From the NCBI RefSeq assembly GCF_032854445.1, contig NC_088295.1:6822501-6886500 (forward strand): a stretch of DNA of 64,000 nt, read 5' to 3'. The notes beneath the pieces were generated by a model. It did no database searches. It was not told the origin of the DNA and saw nothing but the letters and a program-made list of their open reading frames with translations. The stretch comes from Liolophura sinensis (lineage: Eukaryota > Mollusca > Polyplacophora > Chitonida > Chitonidae). Below, one piece after another: positions 2,316 to 62,900 of this stretch. The position numbers and the translations under genes are program-made. Within the stretch, counting starts at the first letter, position 1, and each line of letters begins with the position of its first letter.

Positions 2316-2944
2316 CAGTATAGTTTATACACATTGTAAATGTCACAAACTGGATGGTAGAATGGATGCTTCCTTTTGTGGCAGTCACAGGTAATAACAC
2401 TGGATCTGACCCAGCATAAATGGGATATAATAATGGTAACATAGTGGCTGTGTCAACCAGTACTGAGCATAGGGACAAAATGCATTACATAGGCGGAACA
2501 ATTTTAGTCTGTGGTAATATTTATGTAATGCCATGCTGTTCATTGCTGGCAGATTTATGATTTTATGCCACAATTATTTTTTCTGTATTGTACTATATTT
2601 TAGTATATTTTGTAATTTCCTGTTGTATAGCATGCTGTGATTTTAGGACACTGGCTGATGTGTTCATAAATTGTGCTTATCGTTGTCATTGGTCACCTCA
2701 GCTTCCACGCTAGTAACAGTAGCTAAGTTTGTATTTGAATAGTATATCAAATATTTACCTGACAGTGCAAGCAAAAGGCTCCAATTATTGAAGCTTCACT
2801 ACTAACAAGCTTGCTTTCTTTGAGCTCCTTGGTTTTATATATTTATTTTGTGCTATTAATTTATTTCCTTTGGCTTACTTATAGTTGTTTTGCCCACGAT
2901 TTGCCATGCCCTTCTTTGAAATACATGTAATGTCTGTATTCAAG

Positions 2945-3215
2945 ATGATAGTGAGTGAGTGAGTGCCTGGGGTTTAATGTCGTACGTAACAATTTTTCAG
3001 TCATGAAATGTGCCTCCTTGTTGCAGGGCGGATTTCCACCGCTCGTTTATCAAGTGCTGCTTCACTGAAACTGTTTTAGAATTAGGACAAGCCTGGAAGC
3101 CAGTAGTATTTTGACATGGGTCAACAGTTTGGTACAAGACAAGTCCGAGTTGGAACTTTTTAAGGAAGTGGGTAGCTGGAAAAGTTATGTGTCGCATCAA
3201 CTGAAAAATTATTTC
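2945..3215 (-). mobile_element. SINE-like element, GTACGACGTTAAAC-tail family
   Basis: On the minus strand the element ends with GTACGACATTAAACCCCAGG followed by a CACTCACTC simple repeat. The same tail occurs at 25700-25775 and 49760-49830, which defines a dispersed family in this window. The 5' boundary is uncertain. Confidence 0.6.
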
Positions 3216-26700: not shown

Positions 26701-29700
26701 ATGCTTCATTCAAGCAGATCATAGGTTAGTAAGTTATAACGGGGGAGGGGGGACAATCCACAGCTGAGAGCAATGCTTTATTCAGGCAGATCAGAGGTTA
26801 TTAAGTTATAACGTGGGGTGGACGAGACAATCCACAACTAAGAGCAATACTTCATTTATGCAGATCAAAAGTTACTAAGTTATAACGTGGGGTGGATGAG
26901 AAAATCCACAACTTAGAGCAATGCTTCACTGAGGCGTATGAAAGGTTATTAAGTTATAGCGTGGGAGTGCGTGTGTGTGGGAGGTGGGGTGGGGGTGGGG
27001 GTGGGTGAGACAATTCACAGCTGAGAGCAATGCGTCATTCAGGCATATCAGAGGTTATTAAATTATAACGTGGGGTGGATGAGACAATCCACAACTGAGA
27101 GCAATGCTTCATTCAGGCATATGAAAGGTTATTAAGTTATAACGTGGGAGTGGGGGGGTGGGGTGGTGAGACAATCCACAACTGACAGCAATGCTTCATT
27201 CAGGCATATGAAAGGTTATTAAGTTATAACGTAGGAGTGGGGGGTGGGGTGGTGAGACAATCCACAACTGAGAGCAATGCTTCATTCAGGCATATGAAAG
27301 GTTATTACGTTATAACGTGGGAGTGGGGGATGGGGTGGTGAGACAATCCACAACTGACAGCAATGCTTCATTCAGGCATATGAAAGGTTATTAAGTTATA
27401 ACGTGGGAGTCGGGGGTGGGGTGACAATCCACAACTGAGAGCAATGCTTCATTCAGGCATATGAAAGGTTATTAAGTTATAACGTGGGAGTGGGGGATGG
27501 GGTGGTGAGACAATCCACAACTGACAGCAATGCTTCATTCAGGCATATGAAAGGTTATTAAGTTATAACGTGGGAGTGGGGGTGGGGTGGTGAGACAATC
27601 CACAACTGACAGCAATGCTTCATTCAGGCATATGAAAGGTTATTAAGTTATAACGTGGGAGTCGGGGGTGGGGTGACAATCCACAACTGAGAGCAATGCT
27701 TCATTCAGGCATATGAAAGGTTATTAAGTTATAACGTGGGAGTGGGGGGGGGGGGGGACAATCCACAACTGAGAGCAATGCTTCATTCAGGCAAATGAAA
27801 GGTTATTAAGTTATAACGTGGGAGTGGGGGGTGGGGTGGTGAGACAATCCACAACTGACAGCAATGCTTCATTCAGGCATATGAAAGGTTATTAAGTTAT
27901 AACGTGGGAGTGGGGGGTGGGGTGGTGAGACAATCCACAACTGAGAGCAATGCTTCATTCAGGCATATGAAAGGTTATTAAGTTATAACGGAGGAGTGGG
28001 AGGGGGGGAGACAATCCACAACTGAGAGCAAGGCCCCAAGGGTTACTAAGTTATAACTTAGTAAGGCAGATCAGAGGTTTGTAAGTTATGACGTGAGGTG
28101 TAGGAGACAATCCACACAACACGTAATGTGGATACACTAACATATAGATGCAGTTACCATTTATTCTTTTCGCGCCTATCTCACTGCGTAGGCCTACCTA
28201 GACTCCTGAATCACACAGTTAAGACAGTTGCGGACCATCGTTCAAGTTTATATGCTGCTAATACGGGTCTCGTACTAAAAGGCTTACACAGTAGGCTGCA
28301 AATAATGATTGGCTTTGCGCCGTCGTCAAATGAGAACAAGACGACAGACGAAGTGAAGAAGAATTTCAGCCTAACAAATGACATGCCAAACATAATATGT
28401 ACAATACTATCGTGTCGTAGTACACAGCGCTGTGACGAGGTGGGATGAGAATCTAAGATACTGCATGAAAACTACGGGCACTTTTACATAATCGTATCAA
28501 TTCGTCCAACTCTACCTACACTGATGGATCAGTTCGCTCTGCTACGGATCTATATGTGTATTACTAGATGAGATGACGAGGCAGATATGAATAATGCCTG
28601 ACCCATGTACACATAACTGATGAAGACATTTGCTCTGGGTACTTGGTAACACACAAATCTAACAATTAGGCTCGATACTACTCTTGGTAGTTATTGTTTA
28701 AATCTCAAATCAACCCGACAGAACAGGATAACTGTCATTATTAAAACCACCTGGCGGCCAACTGATCAATAAATGGGTTTTTAAGCTGCACAAACGGGGT
28801 TCGTAAGCGAACGCATTAAACCATGTAAATGTGGCTGGTGTGCTTTCTCCCGGCCAGAAAAGCCTGAGTCCCAGCCACATGACCCGATAGGTAGCAGATG
28901 TGTATAACATTCCTGTGTATACAGTCGGGTAATGTCCTCAGAGGTTTACAACCCAGCGGTTATGCAGGCCTGTACACCGGTACAGCACTGACCTGCTGTT
29001 ATGTACGGTAAGATTAGTGGGACATCTGCACCTGGAGATTACTCACTACCGATGACGGCTAAAATGTCGTCAGTCTCAAATAAACCACGAGCCTCGTAAA
29101 AGCATAAAGAAGAGAATGATGCTACATTAAGGACGGCTACAAAGCTTCATCAGCGGTTTAAAAAAGCATGTGATATTGCAGAGTCGTAGGCCTGTCCATA
29201 TCAAGGCATGGACATGTTTAGAGCTATTGTCTGTTACTATACAGGTCCGTGCATGGCGAGCATGGATCAAATCACTGAAATTCTTGTGACAACTGTTAGC
29301 ATTGCTTTGGGCAGTGCCTAGAATAGACGCAGGTAATGACTTCTGAATGACTAGGTAACGGGTTGTAACAATGACAGAGATCGGCCACTGTGTATACCTG
29401 TGCGGTAGACATGGGAGATGGTAGGCTATGTCCTGTTCAGGTGATGAACGCACTACCCACCGGTCCGCTATCTCAAGGATCTCGATGTTACAGGACCTAT
29501 GTACATCATCCCTACCCCCAAACTAGATCAGAGTTACACTGCACGTCTTCCAGTAACTACCGCAAATAATGCATACAGTATTCAAAAGATTAATTTCTGA
29601 ACAGGCTGGTACACTTAGTGCCTTTAGAAAACCGGTTATGGCTAAATTTAAATTTTGTACGATGTATCTGCAACAATACTTATGTTCCCTCCTTTAAGGG

Positions 29701-30649: not shown

Positions 30650-33230
30650 AGCAATAAAATTAGAAGAAATGGCATTGACAACTTGGAGAATAAAGAAAAT
30701 TTTGAGACCGATAAAACTCTTCCAACGCAGAATTTAAGCACAAATACCAACGCTCATAATTTGATTTCTACACAAACAGCACAAGTATATTATTTAACTA
30801 CATCTCCAACGGGTGACTAAATTAACCTACCCCAACAGGCGCGTGTACAATTTTCGAAAGGCAGACATTCCTCATCTAAAAATGCTTCTTTCATCAGTGT
30901 CCTGCAACTCTCTCATAGGCAACACAGACGTTAATGGAAGTATGTCAAATTTTTATGACATTCAGTATGCGTCAATCTCTAACTCTGTTCCAAGTGTTTT
31001 AATTCGTGGGCGCAAGTTTCCACCTTGGTTTGATCAAGATCTACTAGCCGTGCTTAAAGAAAAGGAACAGTCTTATAACATGTACAAAAAAAGATAAAAG
31101 TGACATTCATTATTCTAATTTCGCTGTTATGCGAAAAAGATTCAAAAAGTTCAAACGGGAAAAATATCAGGATTATATTTCAAATGTTGAGTCAGAAACG
31201 GAAAACAACCCGAAACGATTCTGGGGTTTCGTAAAAGCCAAAGCAATCAGAAGGCTCAATTCCGGGCTCTGTCAAGTATGAAAATATTGGGGCTAATGAT
31301 ATCAACTCAGTCACAGAGTTGCTTAACGATTTTTTCTACAGTGTTTTTACCAGACCCCAAACAACGGAAATGCCTCTGTTCTCTGTTCAGTGTGATGACA
31401 TAATGAGCAATGCTACTGTTAATGCCCATGATATATCCTGATTACTGGATTCTGTAAAAATCCACAAGGCCTGTAGATATGACAATATTTCAGGTCTACT
31501 TTTGAAAGAGTGTGCAGAGGAATTTTCAATGCATCTCTTCAAAATGGGTGCTTCCCAACAGATTTTAAGAGAGCTAACGTGATTCCAATTTTCAAAAAGG
31601 CGACCGGACCGACGTTACTAATTACCGCCCTATATCTTTGTTACCACTCTTCAGTAAAATTTTGAAAAGGCTGTATATGAAACACCGTTTCAACATGTTC
31701 GAAACAAAATAGCCTTAAATCAACATGGATTTTTTCTTAACCGTGACACAGTTACCAACCTAGCCTGTTATGTTGATGGTATCACTAAGGTTTTTGACGC
31801 AAAACTGTAGACCGATACTGTGTACCTAGACCTATGTAAAGCCTTCGACAGCGTCTCTCATGATATGCTGATACATAAACTGAAGCATTATGGCTTCCAA
31901 CGCCCACTGCTCAAATGGCTGCGCTCCTATCTCGAAGGCCATTCGCAACGAGTTGTTCTACAGGGCGCAGAATCTTAATGTAAGCCGGTATTATTTGGTG
32001 TACCGCGAGGGTCTTTGATTCGTCCGCTGCTGTTTACTTTATATGTAAACGACATGTCTTCTTGTGTTCGGCACTTTAAATTGTCACTGTATGCAGATGA
32101 CAGTAAACTTTACAAAAAAGTGCGTTTCGCGCAAGAGTGTGAGCTATTACAGGATGACCTTGCAAGTTTAACAAACTGGTGTTCAGTTTGGCAGCATAAG
32201 TTAAACGTGGATTAAGTGTTGTGTCATATCATTCACGAATAAGACCAACAAAAGTATATCCAATTATAGCATAGACATGCACTTGAAAGAGTTGAGACTG
32301 TGAAAGATCTTGGGATAACATTAACCAGTAATCTGATTTTTAGAGTACATGTCACCAGTACCGTTAGAAAAGGTTATAAAATGTTTGGTTTTCTCAAGCG
32401 ATCGTGCATTTCTTTTACAAAAATCAAGTCACTTATATCCCTGTACAGATCTTTAGTTCACTTCAACTTGGAGTATGGGTAAATTATATGGTCCCCCACT
32501 CAAAAATATCTCTCAGACAAGTTAGAGTCCGTTCAAAAAAGTTCATCAAATATCTTTGTTTTAAAACTAATGACGCTCATTCCTCTGAAAAATACAGTTC
32601 TATGTGTAAACATTTTCAGCTGCCAACACTATCTGATCGCCGCAGAGCTGCCGATTTAAAGTTCTTACACTAATGTGTTCATTCTATCGTTGACTCGTTA
32701 GTAGAGCAGGTCAACTTTAATTTTCCTGCCTGGACCTTACGACAAACAGCAACTTTTCCGGCCTTCGTCAACTAGAATTAACGCTCGAAAACATTCATTT
32801 TTCCCTCCAGCCATGAATTTCTATAATGACCTGAGTTCTAGTCATTCCACAGAAATATTTTCTTCACAACAATCTTTTAGAAGGTCAGTTCACTCGATTC
32901 TTTTTTAACGGTTTTTCTATGATTAACATATTTCATGATCTTAACTTCTGATTATAACGGTTTACAACTTTTATCTTTTTTAGATGAAATTTCAACAAGA
33001 ACAGTTTTATATATTCACCTGTTTACATGTAGGCTTATAACATTTCTGTACCAAGAATGACATCACATGTTTACACTATCTTTGTACAAAAAATGCATTT
33101 CATATTTACCTAGCTCTACATATGTGTATTATACGCTTCTGTTACTCTGTATGTTTCCCTGTTATCAGACCTGTAAGTGGGCTCCTGGCCTGTTGGGTTT
33201 AAATATTAATAAACCTAAACGATAAATCAT
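30650..33230 (+). mobile_element. Decayed Jockey/CR1-like non-LTR retrotransposon
   Basis: Broken frames in order: RRVYNFRKADIPHL at 30838, KFPPWFDQDLLAVLKEKE near 31013, an RT core with LDLCKAFDSVSHDMLIHKLK near 31825, LIRPLLFTLYVNDMSSC at 32016 and LSLYADDSKLYKK at 32082 (the YADD catalytic box), then KDLGITLTSNLIF at 32300 and a C-terminal FYNDLSS..RRSVHSIL near 32818. It has several frameshifts and stops. The 3' end is AT-rich (TATTAATAAACC). Confidence 0.85.
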
Positions 33231-44699: not shown

Positions 44700-46125
44700 A
44701 TCTGAAAGTTAACCATGAATGACTGATCAACCACGAGTGTAGATCTAAAACATGCATGTAGGATCAGCTCACTAGTGCAATCAACGTGAGTGTAGATCTA
44801 CAACACACATGTAGGATCAGCTCACTAGTGCAATCAACCCGAGTGTAGATCTACAACATGCATGTATGATCAGCTCACTAGTGTAATCAACGTGAGTGTA
44901 GATCTACAACACACATGTAGGATCAGCTCACTAGTGTAATCAACGTGAATGTAGATCTACAACACACATGTAGGATCAGCTCAATAGTGCAATCAACGTA
45001 AGTGTAGATCTACAACACACATGTAGGATCAGCTCACTAGTGCAATCAACGTGAGTGTAGATCTACAACACACATGTAGGATCAGCTCACTAGTGCAATC
45101 AACCCGAGAGTAGATCTACAACACACGTGTAGGATCAGCTCACTAGTGTAATCAACGTGAGTGTAGATCTACAACACACATGTAGGATTAGCTCACTAGT
45201 GCAATCAACGTGAGTGTAGATCTCCAACACACATGTAGGATCAGCTCACTAGTACAATCAACGTGAGTGTAGATCTACAACATGCCTGTAGGATCAGCTC
45301 ACTAGTGTAATCAACGTGAGTGTAGATCTACAAAACACATGTAGGATCAGCTCACTAGTGCAATCAACGTGAGTGTAGATCTACAACACACATGTAGGAT
45401 CAGCTCAATAGTGCAATCAACGTGAGTGTAGATCTACAACACACATGTAGGATCAGCTCACTAGTGCAATCAACCTGAGTGTGATCTACAACACACATGT
45501 AGGATCAGCTCACTAGTGTAATCAACGTGAGTGTAGATCTACAACACACATGTAGGATCAGCTCACTAGTGCAATCAATGTGAGTGTAGATCTACAACAC
45601 ACATGTAGGATCAGCTCACTAGTGCAATCAACGTGAGTGTAGATCTACAACACACATGTAGGATCAGCTCACTAGTGTAATCAACGTGAGTGTAGATCTA
45701 CAACACACATGTAGGATCAGCTCACTAGTGCAATCAACATGAGTGTAGATCTACAACATGCACCTATGAAAAGCTCTAGAGTGCAATCAACCTGAGTGTA
45801 GATCTACAACACGCATCTAAGAAAAGCTCTATAGTGCAGTCAACCCGAGTGAAGATCTACGACACACATGTAGGATCAGCTCACTAGTGCAATCAACATG
45901 AGTGTAGATCTACAACACACATGTAGGATCAGCTCACTAGTGCAATCAACGGGAGTGTAGATCTACAACATGCACCTAGGATAAGCTCACAAGTGTAATC
46001 ATCTCTTGTGTAGCTCTACAACAAGCATGTAGGACCAACTCACTAGTGCCATCAACCTGAGTGTAGATTTACAACATGCACTTCAGACTAGCTCACTAGT
46101 GCAATCAACCAGAGTGTAGATTTTG
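44700..46125. repeat. Minisatellite, 53-bp unit, about 26 copies
   Basis: The unit is GTGTAGATCTACAACACACA, TGTAGGATCAGCTCACTAGT, GCAATCAACGTGA. GTGTAG starts at 44790 and 44843. Central copies are nearly identical; the right end decays after 45760. Confidence 0.95.
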
Positions 46126-46197
46126 CTAAATATGATAATACAGACAGGAACCTGCACATATCCCTTAGTGCAGGTTCCAAACTGGCCTTGGACAGGG

Positions 46198-46932
46198 AAT
46201 TTGTAGAATCCACCAGCTCTCACTGCTTGTGGAATCCACCAACTCTCCCTGCTTGTGGAATCCACCAACTCTCAATGCTTGCAGAATCCACCAGCTCTCA
46301 CTGCTTGTGAAATCCACCAACTCTCACTGCTTGTAGAATCCACCAACTCTCACTGCTTGTGGAATCCACCAGCTCTCCCTGCTTGTAGAATCCACCAACT
46401 CTCACTGCTTGTGGAATCCACCAGCTCTCACTGCTTGTGGAATCCACCAACTCTCACTGCTTGTGGAATCCACCAACTCTCACTGCTTGTAAAACCCACC
46501 AGTTCTCACTGCTTGTAGAATCCACCAACTCTCACTGCTTGTGGAATCCACCAACTCTCACTGCTTGTGGAATCCACCAGCTCTCACTGCTTGTAGAATC
46601 CACCAACTCTCACTGCTTGTGGAATCCACCAGCTCTCACTGCTTGTAGAATCCACCAGCTCTCACTGCTTGTGGAATCCACCAGTTCTCACTGCTTGTGG
46701 AATCCACCAGCTCTCACTGCTTGTGGAATCCACCAACTCTCACTGCTTGTGGAATCCACCAGCTCTCACTCCTTGTAGAATCCACCAACTCTCACTGCTT
46801 GTGGAATCCACCAGCTCTCACTACTTGTGGAATCCACCAGCTCTCACTGCTTGTAGAATCCACCAACTCTCACTGCTTGTGGAATCCACCAACTCTCACT
46901 GCTTGTGGAATCAACCAGCTCTCACTGCTTGT
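46198..46932. repeat. Minisatellite, 26-bp unit, about 28 copies
   Basis: GGAATCCACCAACTCTCACT, GCTTGT, with variable AACTCTC/AGCTCTC and GTGGAA/GTAGAA positions. Offsets at 46206, 46232 and 46258 give the period. Confidence 0.95.
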
Positions 46933-47365
46933 GAGAAAAACAGCTAACAACGCTCATGTGGCCATTTGTCTAGTCTTCACTTTGTTGAGGACCACTTGTC
47001 TTCCCCTTATATGCTGGCTATATCTGTACATCACCTGTGGTAAAGTTGGTCAGTAATTTACCACAGGTCTGCAGCTTTACACAGACACACCAGTTTCTGA
47101 CACCTATATGTTGGTTATATCTGTACATCACCTGTAGCAAAGTTGTGGTAAATTTTACACTATGCTACATTTCACAGTAACCATGTATATAACTTGTTAC
47201 ATTGAAAAGGTGACAGGAAACCAGATTGAATCAAAACACATCATCAAAACTTCTTGTAATAAAAGTATTATATTTACTTCCAAATAAAAAAGAAGAAATA
47301 TACAAAAGTGGATCACTGTTTGTATTAGAGAAATGCATATGTATTACAGGTTTCATGAATCAGCA
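46933..47365. other. Spacer between arrays
   Basis: Non-repetitive AT-rich sequence. ATATGTTGG..TATATCTGTACATCACCTG-like text occurs twice (about 47010-47040 and 47106-47135), a small direct duplication. No gene. Confidence 0.5.
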
Positions 47366-48748
47366 TTGACGGCCGAGTTACATGCAAATGTGTTACACAT
47401 CGCACAAACTCACGCTGACAGGTGAGTAACATGCAAATGTGTTACACATCGCACAAATTCACGTTGACAGGCCAGCAGCACGCAAATATGTCATGCATCT
47501 GACAAGCCCACGTTGACAGGTAATACGCAAATGTGTCACCCATTTGACATGCCCACCTTGACAGGCGAGTAACACACAAATGTGTCATGCATCTGACAAG
47601 CCCATGCTGACAGGCCAGTAACACGCAAATGTGTCACGCATCTGACAAGCCCAAGTTGACAGGCCAGTAACACGCAAATATGTCATGCATCTGACAAGCC
47701 CAAGTTGACAGGCCAGTAACACGCAAATGTGTCACGCATCTGACAAGCCCAAGTTGACAGGCCAGTAACACGCAAATATGTCATGCATCTGACAAGCCCA
47801 CGTTGACAGGCCAGTAACATGCAAATGTGTCACGCATCTGACAAGCCCACGTTGACAGGCAGGTAGCACTCAAATGTGTCAGGCCTGTGACAAATCCACC
47901 TTGACAGGGGAGTAACATGCAAATGTGTCAGGCTTCTCACAAACCCACGTGGACAGGCCAGTAACATGCAAATGTGTCACGCATCTGACAAGCCCACGTT
48001 GACAGGCCAGTAACACGCAAATATGTCATGCATCTGACAAGCCCACGTTGACAGGCCAGTAACATGCAAATGTGTCACGCATCTGACAAGCCCACGTTGA
48101 CAGGCAGGTAGCACTCAAATGTGTCAGGCCTGTGACAAATCCACCTTGACAGGGGAGTAACATGCAAATGTGTCAGGCTTCTCACAAACCCACGTGGACA
48201 GGCCAGTAACATGCAAATGTGTCACGCATCTGACAAGCCCACGTTGACAGGCCAGTAACACGCAAATATGTCATGCATCTGACAAGCCCCAGTTGACAGG
48301 CCAGTCACACGCAAATGTGTCACGCATCTGACAAGCCCACGTTGACAGGCCAGTAACACGCAAATGTGTCATACATCTGACAAGCCCCAGTTGACAGGCC
48401 AGTAACATGCAAATGTGTCACGCATCTGACAAGCCCCAGTTGACAGGCCAGTAACACGCAAATGTGTCACGCATCTGACAAGCCCCAGTTGACAGGCCAG
48501 TAACATGCAAATGTGTCACGCATCTGACAAGCCCCAGTTGACAGGCCAGTAACATGCAAATGTGTCACGCATCTGACAAGCCCCAGTTGACAGGCCAGTA
48601 ACACGCAAATGTGTCACGCATCTGACAAGCCCCAGTTGACAGGCCAGTAACACGCAAATGTGTCACGCATCTGACAAGCCCCAGTTGACAGGCCAGTAAC
48701 ATGCAAATGTGTCACGCATCTGACAAGCCCATGTCGAAAGGCGAGTTT
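47366..48748. repeat. Minisatellite, 49-bp unit, about 28 copies
   Basis: The unit is GCCAGTAACACGCAAATGTG, TCACGCATCTGACAAGCCCC, AGTTGACAG. A block with the rare variants GCAGGTAGCACTCAAATGTG and GGGGAGTAACATGC occurs twice, 245 bases (five units) apart, near 47859 and 48104, so a five-unit block was duplicated. Confidence 0.95.
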
Positions 48749-48764
48749 CATGTTATACTTCACT

Positions 48765-49705
48765 TCTAGACCAGTCTATTCATGATGACGAGCTGTATTC
48801 TGCTTATCCCATGCTGGTTGACAACAGACAAATGTGCACCTTGGGACAGGAGGGGATATGCATACAGAACCCTGATACTTCTAGACCAGTCTATTCATGA
48901 TGACGAGCTGTATTCTGCTTATCCCATGCTGGTTGACAACAGACAAATGTGTACCTTGGGACAGGAGGGGATATGCATACAGAGCCCCGACACTTCTAGA
49001 CCAGTCTATTCATGATGACGAGCTGTATTCTGCTTATCCCATGCTGGTTGACAACAGACAAATGTGCACCTTGGGACAGGAGGGGATATGCATACAGAAC
49101 CCTGACACTTCTAGACCAGTCTATTCATGATGACAAGCTGTATTCTGCTTATCCCATGCTGGTTGACAACAGACAAATGTGCACCTTGGGACAGGAGGGG
49201 ATATGCATACAGAACCCTGACACTTCTAGACCAGTCTATTCATGATGATGAGCTGTATTCTGCTTATCCCATGCTGGTTGACAACAGACAAATGTGTACC
49301 TTGGGACAGGAGGGGATATGCATACAGAGCCCCGACACTTCTAGACCAGCCTATTCATGATGACGAGCTGTATTCTGCTTATCCCATGCTGGTTGACAAC
49401 AGACAAATGTGCACCTTGGGACAGGAGGGGATATGCATACAGAACCCTGATACTTCTAGACCAGTCTATTCATGATGACGAGCTGTATTCTGCTTATCCC
49501 ATGCTGGTTGACAACAGACAAATGTGCACCTTGGGACAGGAGGGGATATGCATACAGAGCCCCGACACTTCTAGACCAGTCTATTCATGATGACGAGCTG
49601 TATTCTGCTTATCCCATGCTGGTTGACAACAGACAAATGTGCACCTTGGGACAGGAGGGGATATGCATACAGAACCCTGACACTTCTAGACCAGTTTTAT
49701 TGTGA
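48765..49705. repeat. Long-unit tandem array, 115 bp, 8 copies, nearly identical
   Basis: ATGATGACGAGCTGTATTCT recurs every 115 bases from 48782 to 49587. The few variable sites (GTGCACC/GTGTACC, AACCCTGA/AGCCCCGA) travel together. Such uniformity points to recent expansion or homogenisation. It runs into a diverged unit and then a SINE-like copy at 49760. Confidence 0.95.
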
Positions 49706-49759
49706 TGACATGGGCTGTGTCCTGCTTATCTTATGCTGGTTGATGACAGACATGTGGGT

Positions 49760-50010: not shown

Positions 50011-50974
50011 GCGCCAACCTGCTGAGATTTGTATTGGCTGACAGAAGGCACTGTCGTCATACCTTGAATAAAAACAACCTTCTACTGCAGATGTAAACAA
50101 TCTTAATAGCTATCCTGTTAGTTGTTTTAATTTAAATTTGAAGGAGAATAAAGGAGGGTTGGGGGTCAGTCTTTAGCTCACACTGCCCAGTGTGATAAAC
50201 ATTGACAGTCAAACAAGTTTCAGAGGATGACTTGGTCTTATGCAATCAAATATATCGGTATATTGCTGCCCATCCTATTGGCTCAGGCTCGAGTGACTCT
50301 ATATATGCCCTTCATGCAGATCCTAAAAACAACATCAAATTGTTCTACCATTTATTTTGACCAAAATATATGGCATTTAAAGAAGCCCTGTTCTAAATGA
50401 TAAATGCAGGTAAGATCACTGGTAACTGAATCAAATGTTGACTGTTTACAGTCCAGTCAGAGCAATGCTTGTTTAACTCCTGGCCTAACGGAAAACTTTC
50501 TGGTATAAGATCCGACCAGCGGATGAGTGTTCATTTTGAGCCATGATGACTGCTGTGCTACTGAAGCTTAGAAGATGTTATGACACAAACTAGCACAAGG
50601 TTGAATGGCACAGCTGGTTAGTATGACGGAAAATCTCCTCTCAAATTTTAATTCTGACAAAGCCCATGGCATTGTTCACTGTATTTCCATCTGTCCGCCC
50701 GGTCATCACAACTACACACACCGAATTTGGAGAAACGGCTCGCAATATTTTAGACATCCTCCTATCAAGCTTCTTGAGGCAGGACTGAAATAAATAACAC
50801 GGGTAGATTTAGAATACATCATGACATCGATTTCAGAGTAATACTACACCCAGTGGCATTTGCATTACTTGGCTTATGGAACTAGTGAAGAAAAACCTAG
50901 GCCAATGTAAGAAAAAAATAGGCAAATGTAAGAAAACACATCTTTCATTAACTTTCTCTAATATTAGTGCTGTA
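50011..50974. other. Region beyond REXO5, no gene recognised
   Basis: Further REXO5 exons for RNA-recognition motifs were looked for on the minus strand here and not seen. Open frames are short. Confidence 0.4.
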
Positions 50975-53900
50975 CTAGTGTTGTATTACAGTGAACTCCT
51001 GGTAGGGAGTACAGCGTTGTATTACAGTGAACTCCAGGTAGTGAGTACAGCATTGTATTACAGCGAACTCCTGGTAGTGAGTACAGTGTTGTATTACAGT
51101 GAACTCCTGGCAGTGAGTACAGTGTTGTATTACAGTAAACTCCAGGTAGTGAGCACACTGTTGTATTACAGTGAACTCCTGGTAGTGAGTACAGTGTTGT
51201 ATTACAGTGAACTCCTGGTAGTGAGTACAGTGTTGTATTACAGTGAACTCCTGGTAGTGAGCACACTGTTGTATTACAGTGAACTCCTGGTAGTGAGTAC
51301 AGTGTTGTATTATAGTGAACTCCTGGTAGTGAGCACACTGTTGTATTACAGTGAACTCCTGGTAGTGAGTACAGTGTTGTATTACAGTGAACTCCTGGTA
51401 TTGAGTACAGTGTTGTATTACAGTGAACTCCTGGTAGTGAGTACAGTGTTGTATTACAGTGAACTCCAGGTAGTGAGCACACTGTTGTATTACAGTGAAC
51501 TCCAGGTGGGGAGTACAGCGTTGTATTACAACGAACTCCTGGCAGTGAGTACAGTGTTGTATTACAGCGAACTCCTGGTAGTGAGTACAGTGTTGTATTA
51601 CAGTGAACTCCTGGTAGTGAGCACACTGTTGTATTACAGTGAACTCCAGGTGGTGAGTACAGTGTTGTGTTACAGTGAACTCCAGGTAGTGAGCACACTG
51701 TTGTATTACAGTGAACTCCAGGTGGTGAGTACAGTGTTGTGTTACAGTGAACTCCTGGTAGTGAGTACACTGTTGTATTACGGTGAACTCCTGGTAGTGA
51801 GTACAGTGTTGTATTATAGCGAACTCCTGGTAGTGAGTACAGTGTTGTAACTGTGCTGCCTGAGCTGTACGCACCATTCTGTCCTCATCAGTGATGTTGG
51901 TGTTGCTTTCCAGAAGTCTGTTGTAAGCATGTAGCTGAGTCCAGACAAACTCCTTGCTCTTCACGCACTCTTTGGCTTCTGACTTGCTTGTCTTGTCTGA
52001 GCTTGTCTCAACACGCTGTAATGTCTCATCAATAACCTTGTACCTCTCCAACACCTCGGCACAGTCTATCATTGCCGCTAGAACACAGAAATACATACAT
52101 TGTATACATTAATGATGATCAAACTGGTATAAGATTGTGAGCCTATCCTAGAAAACATGAAAAGTAAAGGGGAAAGTGTAGATTAAACATCAACGGGGAA
52201 TGATTTAATGATTATGGCTTAGCACCACATCAGCAATATTTCAGTCATATTGTGGAGAGACGAGGAATGAAAGAATTTCATATAACATATTTGTTTGAAT
52301 ATCTGACTGGTATTTTACAGTGCACTAAAGTGTAGATTAGGTCAAGTTTATTGGTAGTACTACTGCATATCACCGGTTACCTAGAGCCATTCAACCTCAC
52401 AATCTACAAGTACTGGCAAAAGTACAGTAATGCAGCTCACGAGGTACCTGAAAGAGAACTGCACCTCACCAGGTACCAGACATCACTGCTCCTCACCATG
52501 TACCAGGCATCACTGCACCTCACCAGGTACCAGAGAGACCACTGCACCTCACTAGAGTAAACATTACACCTCATGAGGTCCAAGAATCACCACTGCACCT
52601 CACTAAGTACCAGTATCGCCACTCCACCTCAACTGATCTACACATACTCACCCTTCTTGTTGCACTTTTTCAACTTCTCAAAGAATGAGTTATTGAAGTT
52701 ATAGCCCAGGTGTTCAAAGAAGTTTTTCCTTTTCTCAATCATGTGGGGAATGTCAGGGATAGACTTTGTGTGATGACTGTCAGACGGGACTGCTGATTTG
52801 GTGGTGACTGTCTTCTCACTCTCTCTGTTGACAGTTTCTGATATCTGATTGCTTTTCTCGGAGGTGTTCTGACACCCATTACTCTCATCCTCTACAGCTG
52901 CAGTCTTGGCAGTGGTTCCACACCCCTCAGATGCATCTTGTTGGTCAGGCTGTCTACTGACCTGCTGTGGAAAGTTGATGTTCCCCATCCTGACGTCCCC
53001 ATAATGCAACCCTACAACACACAGATAAATGAATCGGACATAACTCCTGAGCCTGATTGTTTGACATCATTACAACATCACTTCACTTACATCCTTGTTA
53101 ATGGATAAATAACAGCCATGATGATTGGCTGTTGTTGTGGGAATGATCTTTGATCTTAATTGTGGGGCACATTTGTAATGCATAACTGTTGCAGGTAGTC
53201 ACTGTACATCAGTAATGTTTTCTCGTTCCTTTCTTGGAAATAGAAACCACAAAGAGATGATTTTAGAAACAAGAATGTTTTTCTCACAGCTCTGGGCATG
53301 AATGTAGGAAAGCGGGGGGAGGTGAGCAATGACAACATAAAGAAAAAATTCATAATATATCATAGGGTTCAACTAAATACTGCGTGTGAGTAGGGAGAGT
53401 TAATAATCACCTTGTCTTAACTTAAGCTTGACCAGCTCCATGGTGGCTATAGCATCCTCAGATGGGTTGTGCCCTGACTGGCCGTCTTGAATCAGCTTAC
53501 TGAAACAGATAATTACATTTATTTATTTACTTAATTTATGGATTGTGTTTCATGCTGGTCTGAAGATCATTTCAGTACTTCCTTCGAATGATGGTAGCTT
53601 AGGATGAGATTGACCCATAGAGAGCCTGATTGGTAAATATGCATAAAATAGAACGGTTATTAGGAAATACAAAATAGGCCAAGAAAATGAAAAAAAAAAA
53701 ATTAAATTTTTTTTGGCATATCATCTTTCATTTTCCTTTAAACCATACATGTACTCTTTGTTTTATGCTACCTGTATCCTTCATATCGGACACAATACTT
53801 ATCATAAACATCTCTTACAAACATATACAAAACTTTGATTAATGTTATTACTTCTTCTTTCTATTTTTTTTTGTTATGAAAGTACAAGAACATTTTGCTT

Positions 53901-56900
53901 ACCCCAGGAAGATGCTTGAAAGCTTTCGCAGACTGGGTTTGACATTTGACAAGCCCGTCAGGTTGTATATCACACTTGTGTCAATCACATAGGGGTGGAA
54001 CATCTGTAAGGATGAAAAAGCACAGTATGACTGTCATGTCAAAACTAAACCATACTGCTGTCAACACTAGTGTCAATACTAGGCCTGTATGAAAATAACA
54101 GATACAGGGAATGTCATCCACAGTTTTTTTCATTTAGAAAGTGTCAAATTCTCGATTCGAATCCAAGTATTGATTTCATTTGGTTTATAGACATACTCAA
54201 CAAGTTTTTACTCAGTTCATGGCAGTCTGTTTTGTGTAGTGGGCTTGAACAAACCACCAGTTTAAAAACCACACGGTATAGCCATACTGATGGAAGACAA
54301 GTGGTCCTCACTGGATGAGACAGAACAAACAGCCGTTGACCACATAAATTTTCCCAGGAAGGTGTCTCACTTTCTTGGAGAAACTTTTTTCTGACAAAAT
54401 TAACATGGCAGATATAGGAAAAATAGGAGAAAAACTAGGAGACATCTTTTTTTCAAATTCTGACTAAATCTGAAAATTTCCCGTGTATGGTTGGGATTGA
54501 AGTAACTGTACACACATCAAAACATATGTAAATTTTTTACACTCAATCCAGAATTGGTAGTAAGGCAACCAAATCCTTGCCTTTAGGAGACACATGAATG
54601 TAAACCTTCAGCTCAAGCCATAAAGCACTGTTGCACATGCAAGCTAACACGTTACAAAACAAAAACCCTGAGGGTCTTAGTGTGTAGTAGAACAAGTTAC
54701 CAAACACAAACCTTGAGGTTTAAGTGTGCAGTAGAACATGTTACCAAACACAACCCTTGAGGGTTTCACTGTGTAGTGGAACATGTTACCAAACACAAAC
54801 TTTGAGGGACTCACTGTGTAAGAGAACATACCAAACACAAACCTTGAGGGTTTCAGTGTGTAAGAAAACATGTTACCAAACACAAACCTTGAGGGAGTCA
54901 GTGTGTAGTAGAACATGTTACCAAACACAAACTTTGAGGGACTCAGTGTGTAATAGAACATGTTACGAAACACAAACCTTGAGGGTTTTAGTGTGTATAA
55001 GAACATGTTACGAAACACAAACCCTGAAAGTCTTAGTGTGTAGTAGAACAAGTTACCAAACACAAACCTTGAGGGTTTCAGTGTGTAAGAGAACATGTTA
55101 CCAAACACAAACCTTGAAGGACTCGATGTGTAGTAGAACAAGTTACCAAACACAAACCTTGAGGGTTTCAGTGTGTAGTAGAACAAGTTACCAAATACAA
55201 ACCTTGAGGGTTTCAGTTTGTAGTAGAACGTGTTACCAAACACAAACTTTGAGGGACTCATTGTGTAGTAGAACAAGTCACCAAACACAAACCTTGAGGG
55301 ACTCGGTGTAGTAGAACAAGTTACCAAACACAAACCTTGAGGGTTTCAGTGTGTAAGAGAACATGTTACGAAACACAAACCTTGAGGTTTTCAGTGTGTA
55401 GTAGAACAAGTTACCAAACACAAACCTTGAGGGTTTCAGCGAGTAGCAGAACAAGTCACCAAACACAAACCTTGGGGGTCTCGGTGTTTAGTAGAACATG
55501 TTACCAAACACAAACCTAAAGGGACTAAGTGTGTAGTAGAGCATGTTATCAAACACAAACCTTGGGGGTCTCAGTGTGTAGTAGAACAAGTTACCAAGCA
55601 CAAACTTTGGGGTTCTCAGTGTGTAGTAGAACATGTCACCAAACACAACCTTTGGTGGTCTCAGTGTGTATAAGAACATGTTACCCAACACAAACCTCGA
55701 GGTTCTCAGTGTAACATGTGTAGTAGAGCATGTTTGGTAACATGTTCTACTACACACTGAGACCCTCAAGTGTAGTAGAACATGTCACCAAACACAACCT
55801 TTGGGGGTCTCAGTGTGTATAAGAACACATTACCAAACACAAACCTCGAGGTTCTCAGTGTAACATGTGTAGTAGAGCATGTTTGGTAACATGTTCTACT
55901 ACACACTGAGACCCTCAAGTGTAGTAGAACATGTTACTAAACACAAACTTTGGGGGTCTCAGTGTGTAGAAGAACACATTACCAAACACAAACCTTGAGG
56001 GTCTCAGTGTGTCTTAGAACATGTTACCAAACACAAACTTTGAGGGTCTCTGTGTAGTAGAACAAGTTACCAAACACAACCTTGAGGGTCTCAGTATGAA
56101 GTAGAACAAGTTACCAAACATAAACTTTGGGGGTCTCAGTGTGTAGTAGAATACGTTACCAAACACAAACCTTAGGAGTCTCACTGTGTAGTAGAACAAG
56201 TCACCAAACACAACCTTGAGGGTCTCTGTGTAGTAGAACAAGTTACCGAACACAAACTTTGGAGGTCTCAGTGTGTAGTAGAACACGTTCCCAAACACAA
56301 ACCCTGAGGGTCTCAATGTGGGGAAGAACACGTTACCAACAAACCTTGGGGGTCTCGGTGTGTAGTAGAACAAGTTACCAAACACAAGCCTTGAGGGTCT
56401 TAGTGTTACCAAACACAAACCTTAAGAGTCTCGCTGTGTAGTAGAACAAGTTACCAAACACAAACTTTGGGGGTCTCAGTGTGTAGTAGAACAAGTTACC
56501 AAACACAAGCCTTGAGGGTCTTAGTGTTACCATACACACATCTTGATGGTCTTAGTGTGTAGTAGAACAAGTTACCAAAGACACACTTTGACAGTGTGCA
56601 GCAGAAAAAGTTACCAAACACACACCCTGAGAGCCATGAGATCAGCATTCAGTGACTGTCCACACAAAATCGCATCCGGAGGAAGAATCTTCTGTATGTG
56701 CCTTTGTACATCTTCCAAGCGGGTTGTTATGGTTGATAGCATTTTCTCTGAGACACCAGAATACCTGCACAAGAGAAAGGCATGAAAAAACTTTGTACAA
56801 TGCTCTAACTCCAGGTAGGTCTGTGTGTGTGTGTGTAAGACAGCATGTGCTGATTCCAGGTAGTGATTTTAGTGTATGGTTTCCTCAGTGATTCATACAA

Positions 56901-59900
56901 CACCATCAGGTGTGCTTCTGGTCTTGGTCAGGTAGTTGGTGATTTTAGTATATGGTTTCACCAGTGTCTTGCCTTTGTATCATATGGTGTCTATCAGGTG
57001 TGTTTCTGATCTTACCTGGTCAGGTAGTTGGTGATTCTAGTGTATGGTTTCACCAGTGTCTCGTACAACACCTCCAAATCCTCATTCACAAGAGAGACCC
57101 AAGTCAGCTCTGATGTCTTCTCCGAGGTTTTACACTGAAACCAGAAATACATCAAAGTCAAAGTCAAAGGCAAGCTCCACTTGTCACCCTCAAGGAAGTT
57201 CATTCTATATCATCATCCCATGTCAAATAATGAGATGGGCAATACTATTTATTTGGTTAACATTTAATGTCTCTTTTGACATTTATCCACCAAGTCTTGT
57301 AACAGGTGGGTCAGAACACCAACATATTTATAATGCTACATGAATGCATTGCCATATGAGCGGCACGTCACAAACTGACATATGCATGGCCTTTTCTCTG
57401 AGCATCAAACCAGGCAGTACAGTACAGAAGCAATCATGGCATCATCCTAACCTTTCCCAACCTGCCAAAAAAAAGGCTGCCACAATATGGTTGCAACATT
57501 GCCAAAATTGAGTTAACAATAATCATTCATGTAATCTGAACAATAGCAGTTTCACTTTCATTTAATTTTTAAGCTTCTTCTTTTTGAGAAAATAAACATC
57601 TTGTGTATTACAATTTGCAATGTGTCACAGACAGTTAAGAAATCAAGGAGTTATGGAGTTTAGTGAATGAATGATTTGGCAATGTAGTTTAAAACATAAA
57701 GAGTGTGGTTTAGCACGAGATATGGGGTTACATGTGCTGAAAAGAAACCCCAATCTGGTCTGACTTCTATCTTGTTTACATTATGCCCCATAATGCAACA
57801 CAGACAGACAAACATACATCATCACAGCATGTATGTAAGCCCTGTGGCATAATACACTGATGGGATAGAACATGAACATGTAGTATTGCCTGATGTCCAA
57901 TTTACAAGTCCTGTCTAAACCAAGGCCTCTTTAATACACAGAGGATGAGTAAAAGACCTTCCTTTATCACCCTCCACTTTCCCATGGTACAGACATAGGG
58001 GGTCCGAGGGCCCCCTACCCGAGTCCTGATGCCTATGGTACATGTCCTCTTTATGGCTTACCATCTCACAATCCACAGCAAACATTGGACTGCTAGCCGT
58101 CACTTCCTCATACTTATCACAGGTAAACACAAAGTCTTTCAACTTATCTACAAACAAAACAAAAGTTTTTGAAGGTTTTCTTCATTTGTCATACATGTAC
58201 TATTACATACTGATGTAACTGCTTTAATACTTCGTCATACAGAGTTCATTTTTGTGATCAGCTTACAACAATTCTTAAACAGTCCAAAAAAAACACAAAA
58301 CCCACCAAAATCAAGAAACCCTGGATAGTAGTCAGAAACTGACACATGTAGCTAACTACCGTACACGTAAACAAGTATGACCAGAAGGTGACATATTTCC
58401 CCTGTCCCACCAACAATAAAGCTGTTATGACCCTTTGACAAATGATGCATTGCAACCTAATAAGCACATCTTCAGCTCATTTCCAAAACATTTATGAAAG
58501 ACTTAAGTTTTCATGTAAGCTGTTGGTTAGTCCTGAAATTCAAATCAAGGGTGATAGAGGAGAAAATAATTCAAGCAATGCTACTGTAATTCTCCAACCT
58601 CTTCGCATGTTTGTTTAATCAGACATATTTTGAAGGCATTATTCTGTGTTGACTGATAAAATTGTACTTTTTGTGAAATTGGTCAATCCAACCAATGTAG
58701 TTCTGTTTCCAAAATCAAATTATAAATGTGCATAAATTGCACTGAAAGTTGCCCTTTTATATGTGAAAAGGTTGAGGAATTAGGGTACCAAAACGTAGCT
58801 GACATTTGCTTACTACTGTGTTAACTACTAAATGTTACCTGGTTGACTGTCCAAAGGTAAGGGGTATTTCTCACCTGACATTTAACTACTTCTCTGTTAA
58901 CTACTAAATGTTACCTGGCTGACTGCCCAGAGGTAAGGGTTATTTTTCCCCCACCATTTGACTACTGCTCGGCTAACTACTAAATGTTACCTGGCTGACT
59001 GCCCAGAAGTAAGGGGTATTTTTCACCTGACATTTAACTACTTCTCTGTTAACTACTAAATGTTACCTGGCTGACTGTCCAAAGGTAAGGGGTATTTTTC
59101 CCCCACCATTTGACTACTGCTCGGCTAACTACTAAATGTTACCTGGCTGACTGTCCAAAGGTAAGGGGTATTTTTCCCCCACCATTTGACTACTGCTCGG
59201 CTAACTACTAAATGTTACCTGGCTGACTGTCCAGAGGTAAGGGGTATTTCTCAGGACATCAGATTAATGCCCTATTAACTACTGCTGTTACCCGACTGAC
59301 TATCCAGAGGTAACAGGGAATTTCTCACCTGACATTTGATGACTACTCTGCCAACAACTGCTGTTACCCGACTGACTATCCAGAGGTAACAGGAATTTCT
59401 CACCTGACATTTGATAACTACTCTGCCAACAACTGCTGTTACCCGACTGACTATCCAGAGGTAACAGGAATTTCTCACCTGACATTTGATGACTACTCTG
59501 CCAACAACTGCTGTTACCCGACTGACTATCCAGAGGTAACAGGAATTTCTCACCTGACATTTGATGACTACTCTGCCAACAACTGCTGTTACCCGACTGA
59601 CTATCCAGAGGTAACAGGAATTTCTCACCTGACATTTGATGACTACTCTGCCATACTCTGCCAACAACTGCTGTTACCCGACTGACTCTCCAGAGGTAAC
59701 AGGAATTTCTCACCTGACATTTGATAACTACTCTGCCAACAACTGCTGTTACCCGACTGACTATCCAGAGGTAACAGGAATTTCTCACCTGACATTTGAT
59801 GACTACTCTGCCAACAACTGCTGTTACCCGACTGACTATCCAGAGGTAACAGGAATTTCTCACCTGACATTTGATGACTACTCTGCCAACAACTGCTGTT

Positions 59901-62900
59901 ACCCGACTGACTATCCAGAGGTAACAGGAATTTCTCACCTGACATTTGATGACTACTCTGCCATACTCTGCCAACAACTGCTGTTACCCGACTGACTCTC
60001 CAGAGGTAACAGGAATTTCTCACCTGACATTTGATGACTACTCTGCCAACAACTGCTGTTACCCGACTGACTATCCAGAGGTAACAGGAATTTCTCACCT
60101 GACATTTGATGACTACTCTGCCAACAACTGCTGTTACCCGACTGACTATCCAGAGGTAACAGGAATTTCTCACCTGACATTTGATAACTACTCTGCCAAC
60201 AACTGCTGTTACCCGACTGACTATCCAGAGGTGACAGGAATTTCTCACCTGACATTTGATGACTACTCTGCCAACAACTGCTGTTACCCGACTGACTATC
60301 CAGAGGTGACAGGAATTTCTCACCTGACATTTGATGACTACTCTAGTGACTACTAAATGTTACCTGACTGACTCTCCAGAGGTAAGGGGTATTTCTCAGC
60401 TGACATCTGGCTACTGCTCAGCAAGAGGTGGGTCCTTGGAAACACATCTTCATCGGGTAACTCAGCGATTTTATGATTGATCGTAATTAACTTTTGAATG
60501 TATTGAGGTGTGGCCCCATATGATATCTCCTTGGCATTCTTTAAAGGAACTGGAATAAAATCAATGTGTAACGTCTGTATACATGTCACATTATTCTGAC
60601 TAGAAATGAAACCAATGATGATAACTTCTTTGCATCTTTATGAGGAGTTTAATCAAAACTTACTTATTACTTAAGAATTTATATTAACTGGTATTTTACA
60701 TGTATAAACTGGTATTTTGCATGCATAAACTGGCATTTTACATGTATAAACATAAAGAACAAGTTGTTCCAAACACTGACTTATTTAATGAAAAAAAAAA
60801 AGAGTTGCACAAACCATTTCTTCTAAGCAGTTCAGAAATACTGACAGGTAAATTGAACATTTCCTGATCCACCGTGCTGCCATACTGGGATGGGGAGGTC
60901 AGTGATATGCACTGGGAAAATGAAAGTGGTGTTTAGTCATTCACTGCACAGAAAAAGTATTTTTTGTGGGTATTTATTTTTAATCAAAAACTGGAGAATG
61001 GTATATTATGTATCACTTATCTACATATCAAATGGCGCTCAACTGAACAGAAATACAAGTACTGTTTTGAAATAAATATTTTGACTTCAAGTGAACGTAT
61101 GAAATTATTTAACTCTAAATTTAAATTCCAAATGCATATAGAGCTACATTACCCGTACGGACTCTTACCATGTCAAAAAGAGCATCCAGATGGGAGAAAG
61201 AATCCTTGTATGCTTCATAGTCTGACTGGCCTACATCATTCAGCACCACAACAACAACACCAGAGACCTTTGTACATCGCAGTAACTTGCACCATCTTTA
61301 ACAACATCAAATGTTACTTTCAAATCACTTTAATCCACAACTTTGGTCTTTGAGGGCTCAACTGGATACAGCATTGCCTTCACAGCAGTCTTATGTTTAG
61401 TGACTTAAAGGATTTTATTATTTACTCATAATTAGTTACCCCTGAGTATTTTATTAAATTGACTTTATAAAACTATTACGAAAGGGCACAATATTCTGAG
61501 TAATATGGCATATAAAATCACCAGATAATGAGGCTGATTTTACACCTTTTCCCCACCAATACTGTTTAGTTTCTGTCAAATTCTGTCATACAAGGTTGAA
61601 CAGGTTATAATCTTAATGACCAGGACCAGTAGCAAAATCTGGACACTAATGCTATAAGGCAAAGCATGGGGAAGTGAAAATGAAATATGTCAATAAAGAG
61701 TCACACAATTTTCCACAAAATGTAATAGAAAGCTCTGTGCCACAAAAAGTGACAATGTCCCCAGATGTGAAACTAAAGCTTGTACTATTGTAAGTTATCC
61801 GCATGTTTAGAAGGGTACATGGGATTTAAGCCCTTGGTGTGAAATTTTAAACCTGGGCCGCAGGCCGTAGGGACAAACGATATTGTCTAGTACATGTAAA
61901 GCTGAACTAAGAAAAAATCACGCTAGCTATGTCGACTGCAGACAGCTTTGGTATAGTGGTGTGACGTCACAATGTCGTGCCTTGTGCTGCAGTGTCATAA
62001 AGAAAAATCAGTCTGCGAAGTACCTTAGCTGCACAGGGTATAAATCTAGCATCACAGAGAAAAATGAAGTCAGTCTGCGCTGTAATTTAGCTGTTTAGGG
62101 TTTAAATCTCATACGTCCCTTGTGGGTATGGCCTGCTGCTCTGACAAGGGTATGTCAACATTTTAACCTGCCTGATCAGCCAATGGCAATCAAGAATCAC
62201 GGAAGATGTAGGGACAAAGCAAAATACAGCTGTATCCACCTCCCACCCCTCAATAATATTGCACTTTACGCCATATTGTTTACACTACACCAAAGCATGT
62301 TATTTGTGAATGAACTCAAAAGTTTATCAGTAACAAAGGCCGAAAGTAAACATTTGGTTTTTGTACGATCAAGCTGGACAACCATAGTTCTGCCGTTAAA
62401 AATCAGACAGTATTACATGTACTACATACTGTACCTGGGTTTGAAACTTGTTATGTTTCCTTCTAGTCCGAACAAAATTAGATGTTGAAGGTCTTGAACA
62501 AACAATGGTGGGCGTACCCCATCATCATCAAGGTCATCCAAGGTCAAATACAACTTTGGCCTCTCCTGCGGCATTTAAAAATAAGGCATTCAAGTAATAT
62601 CAAATACTTGCCTGGTAAATAGTAAAACAGAAACAAAAAGTAACCTGGAAGATTCTCCAGTGTAGATACTAGGTGGCCTCTAGGAAACAAAAAGTGATGG
62701 ACGTCATGGTTAGTGTAAGACAGCAAACAAAGCAAGCCAACACCCACCCTCCCCTCCTCTCCCCTCCCTGCATGAATGTTTCCCATTCAAGCAAGACACA
62801 TCTTCTTCACCCCCTTTCCTTCCATGATAAACGTTTCCATTTCTGCAGGCCATGTTTTCCTGGCACCCACCACTTCCATGAGAAACGTTTCCCATTCTTG

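Follow-up and report, generated by a model that had tools for sequence, protein, structure and literature searches.

A junction-spanning minisatellite in a chiton exonuclease gene, with evidence of a wider donor-anchored pattern

An array of exon tail, splice donor and intron start

In the chiton Liolophura sinensis, most of one intron of a predicted exonuclease gene consists of tandem copies of the exon–intron junction at which this intron begins. The gene lies on the minus strand of a stretch of 64,000 nt (assembly GCF_032854445.1, contig NC_088295.1, positions 6,822,501 to 6,886,500), which is called “the window” below and whose first letter is position 1. Tandem Repeats Finder (TRF) and inspection of the units revealed a 75-bp minisatellite of 21 units (21.1 copies) at 58799–60406. 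The units reproduce, in the original order, the terminal 56 nt of the exon, its donor CAG/GTAACA (the slash marks the exon–intron boundary) and about 18 nt of the intron. The best explanation, to which we assign a probability of about 0.8, is a neutral, junction-spanning intronic minisatellite that grew from the exon tail and its donor and is spliced out from the first donor. A sample of other loci provides evidence of a wider donor-anchored pattern in the chiton genome.

The exon in question comprises 186 nt (60364–60549), was delimited by splice signals and its open frame, and encodes PLKNAKEISYGATPQYIQ..THLLLSSSQMSAEKYPLPLESQS; SSQMSAEKYPLPLES is a stretch of it. It is followed by the authentic predicted 5′ splice site GTAACATTTAG (60353–60363), with the first intron base at 60363. 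The intron has a length of 2,216 nt (60363–58148), and about 1,565 nt of it (71%) belong to the array, which confirms the intronic array described in an earlier note on this DNA. The remaining 651 nt up to the acceptor (58148–58798) lie outside the TRF array, and the next exon starts at 58147 (KLKDFVFTCDKYEEVTASSPMFAVDCEM). The downstream exons encode ..FAVDCEM, ..LNADLMALR and MFHPYVIDTS... Pfam and NCBIfam scans of the six reading frames of the gene yielded no family, nor did a Pfam scan of the joined 239-residue peptide, but a sequence search of the PDB with this peptide did give matches, i.e. Small RNA degrading nuclease 1 (1.7e-21), ISG20-like 2 and ISG20. By sequence, the gene product is therefore a DEDDh exonuclease belonging to the SDN/ISG20 group. 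The match spans query residues 73–233, and the exon tail found in the array falls outside of it. The names REXO5 and exon 7 are those of the earlier note and are putative.

The similarity between exon and array is confined to the end of the exon. The last 60 nt of the exon align with the intron with a score of 38, compared to 19 for the best of 500 shuffled sequences, whereas the first 60 nt and the middle 60 nt have scores of 10 and 11, respectively, no better than the shuffles. The alignment of the unit with the exon tail, as proposed earlier, is thus well above chance. The likeness begins 56 nt ahead of the donor; the exon tail and a young unit are equal at 46 of 57 positions, and the corresponding figure for the most distal unit is 46 of 55. 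We infer that these last 56 nt were the template of the array units. The earlier note had, however, misplaced the donor: its CCAGAGGTAA is the plus strand of coding TTACCTCTGG inside the exon, while CAG/GTAACA is on the minus strand.

Seen from the exon outwards, the array consists of one junction unit, 13 young, near-identical units and, farthest away, seven units that are older or hybrid. The first unit has 76 nt, and two of the 13 young units have 85 nt. TRF also reported a higher-order period of 310 bp, which is an alternative reading of the 75-bp array. Two adjoining blocks of this length (59404–60023) are identical at 310 of 310 bases; judged from the bases, this block duplication is recent. 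A genome search with the array DNA, in which very common words were skipped, returned a single match, so that the 75-bp array is not seen as a dispersed (intron-making) element.

GGTAAC is present in all 21 units, in agreement with the earlier note, and the GT homologous to that of the donor is intact in 20 of 20 copies; at the level of sequence, the intron does contain the ladder of decoy donors that had been proposed. In the 13 young units the site reads CGG/GTAACA and is weaker than the true donor CAG/GTAACA. By one base change compared to the exon, CAG/GTGAGA occurs at 15 places in the array. About 20 units had been said to keep the reading frame of the exon, which is an overstatement: 11 of 21 are open over their full length in the frame homologous to that of the exon, and because the first unit (76 nt) and the two units of 85 nt have lengths not divisible by three, the frame is not continuous through the array. 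In addition, a TAG in the exon frame is located 8 nt inside the intron, past the true donor. Use of a decoy would therefore truncate the protein before the exonuclease domain, and no decoy could yield a longer in-frame protein, so that the earlier suggestion of 25-codon exon copies as a source of variable exon length is not supported in the sense of in-frame protein variation.

Arrays at other splice junctions

For comparison, exons with matches to three Pfam families were located in the genome, and the 66 loci surrounding them (218,370 bases) were taken as a sample. Two were dropped before counting, i.e. L014, which lies in the window and holds a calpain acceptor array (see below), and L068, which has a 99-bp array in common with L069 and whose own 56-bp array, not donor-anchored, was lost with it. 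The 64 counted loci include 37 array rows in 21 loci; a single array was probably counted twice, as the 40-bp arrays with which L067 ends and L063 begins. Nine of the 37 arrays, called by eye, are located on a donor, and the unit of seven of these contains exon sequence. The junction-templated expansion considered in the earlier note is thus backed by the order of exon, donor and intron in the main array and by nine further loci with donor arrays. In contrast to these nine, one of the 37 arrays overlaps an acceptor or start codon, a 64-bp repeat in a calpain gene (L008, oriented 609–791) that spans the acceptor and/or the start codon. Sixteen Ras-family loci (L071–L086), in which no array touches the exon match, were left out of the counts; they offered few donors, and their matches mostly reach the profile ends, presumably representing single or terminal exons.

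Among the sampled loci, a USP46-like gene (L069; G000:C8, ~30.70 Mb, oriented 925–1744) has the cleanest natural ladder of equal donors. Its 99-bp unit, 85 nt of which are exonic, is present in 8.3 copies, and the near-consensus true donor, AAG/GTRAGT, precedes seven decoys whose score is about the same (mean 8.0 versus 8.0). Joined across this array, the 98-residue protein gives a gap-free alignment with USP46 (6jlq) over 98 of 98 residues, so that the conserved protein cannot accommodate array units. The other arrays with exon sequence belong to a helicase gene (L037; 69-bp unit, 11.5 copies, 50 nt exonic), a DDX41-like gene (L031; 39 bp, 22.1 copies, 33 nt exonic), an eIF4A-like gene (L020; 45 bp, 3.0 copies, 32 nt exonic), a calpain gene (L016; 37 bp, 9.9 copies, 30 nt exonic), a USP gene (L067; 31 bp, 8.1 copies, 25 nt exonic), and a second helicase gene (L030, oriented 1633–2212; 22 bp, 26.6 copies). 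The L030 unit is wholly exonic (GT...AG), and the second copy supplies the donor itself, possibly a case of donor replacement or intron growth. The arrays of L008 and L058 begin at the donor and contain no exon sequence. The DDX41-, eIF4A-, and calpain-like exons match their families to or almost to the donor. Because the exons of these three genes and of the USP46-like gene match solved proteins, the exon is the source and the intronic copies are derived in these four genes.

The enrichment at donors was tested for Pfam-matched exons only, with L069 left out because its hidden Markov model match starts inside the array. Five of the 17 arrays downstream of 56 such donors are donor-anchored, while 0.86 are expected under uniform placement (p ~0.001); the next nearest of the 17 is 426 nt away from its donor. 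None of the 13 arrays upstream of 52 acceptors is acceptor-anchored, in a count that leaves aside the calpain array of the window. If donors are assumed to occur once per kb, one would expect 2.1 of the 37 arrays at donors, compared to the nine observed (p ~0.0004) or to the seven with exon sequence (p ~0.006). The ratio of donor to acceptor arrays is 9 to 1 (p 0.02). Alignment of the exon tail with the downstream intron exceeded all 150 shuffles in three of the 59 loci with a predicted donor (L030, L031, and L037), and in 0 of 59, 0 of 54, and 0 of 54 cases in three control comparisons. This test missed L016, L020, L058, L067, and L069 because the anchored exon end differs from the predicted one, and L008 because its unit is devoid of exon sequence.

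A sense-strand excess of donor-like sites in array units was also considered as a general signature, and was not used as evidence. By sign, 21 of the 39 rows of the sample had such an excess (p 0.75; Wilcoxon p 0.016), as did 29 of 51 with the window arrays added (p 0.40; Wilcoxon 0.005); without the four donor-anchored loci then known, it was not significant (14 of 30; Wilcoxon p 0.12).

The window itself contains two further large arrays on splice junctions, both on the minus strand; one of the three in total exhibits strong exon likeness. The first is a second donor-side array of the exonuclease gene (54646–56625), with units of 45 bp, of which the main TRF row has 38.8 copies, and further rows to 56558. 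It reaches the donor AGG/GTGTGT (first intron base 56625) after the exon ending with ..LNADLMALR, and its junction alignment, which includes just 6 nt of the exon, has a score of 26 versus 19 for the best shuffle. The other is an acceptor-side array (18870–19375; 67-bp unit, 7.6 copies) that crosses the 3′ splice site preceding a calpain exon (first exon base 18883), and its alignment is continuous across the junction. The arrays at 16699–17639, 50972–51849, and 52458–52552 are located tens of bases inside introns and do not cross a junction, with donors placed by eye. Those at 10031, 23819, 26322, 33581, and 44735–49752 were not tied to exons in the flanks that were viewed.

Several additional features were observed. 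The 36-bp array at 50972–51849 (24 copies) is located just past coding ..DRMVRTAQAAQ and has several open frames, so it is possibly an exonic C-terminal repeat. Clusters of minisatellites with differing units of 26–115 bp are present at 23819–28031 and 44735–49752. Reverse-transcriptase-like frames (..YADDSKLYKKV..) were noted by eye at 30798–32673 on the plus strand, suggesting a decayed non-LTR (long terminal repeat) retrotransposon. tRNA-like stretches (..GCGTCCGCTTCGGGA..GGTAGATCCAGG..) next to arrays, at 19370–19480 of the window and at oriented 2290–2420 of L030, likely represent a family of short interspersed elements, again by eye. In L023 (oriented 2424–3189), presumably a DDX23-like gene, another of the 37 arrays, with a 41-bp unit, begins at an apparent stop codon; arrays may start wherever coding constraint ends, rather than at donors alone. 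Outside of the window, G000:C99 (108,685 bp) carries seven COX1 copies about 15.5 kb apart in a head-to-tail mitochondrial concatemer, which is probably an assembly product and possibly a nuclear mitochondrial array.

Origin of the array and competing explanations

The array would have been born when about 56 nt of the exon tail, the 5′ splice site and about 18 nt of the intron were tandemly duplicated. The direction from exon to intron is suggested here by the coding role of the exon, and the conserved exons of the sister cases support it. Growth to about 21 copies probably involved more tandem duplication, slippage or unequal exchange, because the central units are near-identical, the 310-bp block has an unchanged duplicate, and the edges are diverged. 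The spliceosome would use the first, exon-attached donor, so that the whole array is removed as intron; this is deduced from the in-frame stop just past the donor and from the USP46-like protein that is continuous across its array. The array would persist because copies past the true donor are transcribed later and should do little harm, while copies before an acceptor would compete first. With the first transcribed donor committed before the decoys exist, and with decoy acceptors preceding the true one, a donor bias of arrays is to be expected. A mutational preference for donor regions is an equally open source of this bias. The more general proposal that, throughout the chiton genome, minisatellites arise preferentially at 5′ splice junctions, and that ladders of up to about 20 intact donors are tolerated because the first one transcribed wins, is tentative, and we would give it somewhat less than even odds.

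Several points weigh against the reading as a neutral, donor-derived array. The 15 CAG/GTGAGA decoys have a score of 7.2, compared to 3.3 for the true donor, based on a generic matrix; exclusive use of the first donor is accordingly less certain. The array would be without a function of its own, where “neutral” denotes an absence of evidence for function. When just the arrays with exon sequence are counted, the ratio of donors to acceptors is 7 to 1 (p 0.07). The tests were designed post hoc, and they involve small counts, predicted donors and the generic matrix; for L067, one of the five anchored cases, the position of the donor was set manually. The enrichment had been weaker in an earlier version of this test, with four anchored arrays observed versus 0.98 expected (p 0.013), and three versus 0.69 and 0.55 with stricter array sizes (p 0.029 and 0.017, respectively); it included one acceptor-anchored array, L014 of the window, which is no excess. 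L008 and L058 merely abut their donors, and the donor of L058 is weak (−0.5). Lastly, the exon part alone has a score of 8 in the second array of the exonuclease gene, below the 13 of the best shuffle, and a score of 12 in the calpain acceptor array, where the shuffles reach 12–14.

The foremost alternative is regulated poison splicing, according to which the donors of the array are used at some rate, so that units with early stops are retained and the array adjusts the output of the gene via nonsense-mediated decay, with its length setting the dose. The intact decoy GTs would fit this, i.e. 20 of 20 in the main array, and 9/9, 2/2, 18/22, 21/21, 10/10, 5/7, and 7/7 in seven sampled arrays, as would the fact that some decoys score as high as, or above, the true donor. 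Likewise, in the five cases where just one phase of the exon is open, read-through would encounter a stop 6–41 nt after the donor. However, a recent expansion alone also predicts intact decoys, and the units differ among genes. Moreover, in the second array of the exonuclease gene, three of 13 decoys are broken and none attains the score of the true donor, while the one homologous decoy of L058 is not intact (0/1), and L008 has no homologous copies by the same method. We therefore consider poison splicing to be unlikely.

Less probable still is intron gain by tandem duplication, whereby a duplicated exon segment with an AG and a GT would have made the intron, with the array as its body. A model of this kind has been proposed for globin mirages of lancelets (PMC3087553), and the wholly exonic 22-bp unit of L030, with its GT...AG and a donor provided by copy 2, resembles the predicted structure. 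In the exonuclease gene, in contrast, the unit holds about 18 nt of intron sequence, and 651 nt together with the acceptor are outside the TRF array, so that the duplicated exon does not account for the intron body and both splice sites; in L030, inspected by eye, the array gives way to other DNA and no next exon was seen in the locus. The least probable option, an ordinary intronic minisatellite whose exon likeness arose by chance or whose exon was built from intron repeats, draws on the richness of the window in tandem repeats (48 TRF rows), but it conflicts with a likeness that greatly exceeds that of shuffled sequences and is restricted to the end of the exon, and with the repeated exons that match solved proteins in four sampled genes (USP46, DDX41, eIF4A, and calpain).

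Relation to known systems and significance

Arrays of this type have a precedent. In lancelets, minisatellite-like tandem duplications of exon/intron boundaries, termed mirages, are described for Adh3, the globin genes BflGb6 and BflGb9, TnC, and PGBD5; they are said not to disturb regular splicing, based on Adh3 data and globin RT-PCR (reverse transcription–polymerase chain reaction), and to vary in length (PMC3087553, PMC3902484). The chiton array and the mirages have in common boundary-spanning tandem units with splice signals in many of them, unit sizes of tens to about 160 bp, and a homogenised centre with distinct edge units, which is attributed to concerted evolution in mirages. In the chiton, the units span the exon–intron boundary (56 nt of exon, the donor, and about 18 nt of intron), and the pattern of near-identical central and diverged edge units is the same, as judged without a tree. 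The copy numbers differ, about 21 in the chiton array versus six and three in two BflGb6 haplotypes of lancelet. Further differences are that the host of the chiton sample is a mollusc and that donors are affected more often than acceptors. In its anatomy, the array of this one assembly agrees with the description of a mirage. A lancelet origin of the DNA, considered on account of the mirages, was rejected: the mitochondrial gene order, with the genes named by eye, fits that ancestral to molluscs. A search of the genome for the GFP family returned nothing, but it was equally negative in 14 control genomes and is thus uninformative.

The model of intron gain by tandem genomic duplication, credited to Rogers in PMC3087553, similarly involves sequence with splice signals that is tandemly duplicated inside a gene; the chiton intron, in contrast, shows no sign of newness, and its acceptor is outside the array. 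Ordinary intronic minisatellites, or variable number tandem repeats, resemble the array in unit length, head-to-tail copies and a young, homogeneous centre, but the chiton unit contains exon sequence and a splice donor. In the literature searched, titles and abstract openings revealed no report of such arrays in molluscs, and the main text of an eLife chiton comparison contains neither “minisatellite” nor “tandem repeat” (PMC12005716). The array thus represents a known, but little-studied kind; as far as the searched titles and abstract openings go, the phylum is new, as are the frequency and the donor bias. This suggests that boundary-spanning arrays are not a peculiarity of lancelets.

Engineered minigenes are the usual system for studying which of several equal donors the spliceosome selects. 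The chiton genes are natural versions thereof, with two to about 20 copies of one donor in the same exonic context, and such near-identical decoy ladders could show how cells choose the right splice site. The pattern also bears on where minisatellites start. If chiton 5′ splice junctions were indeed a preferred birthplace and the first transcribed donor wins, the imbalance of arrays between donors and acceptors would be a genomic readout of co-transcriptional splice-site choice.

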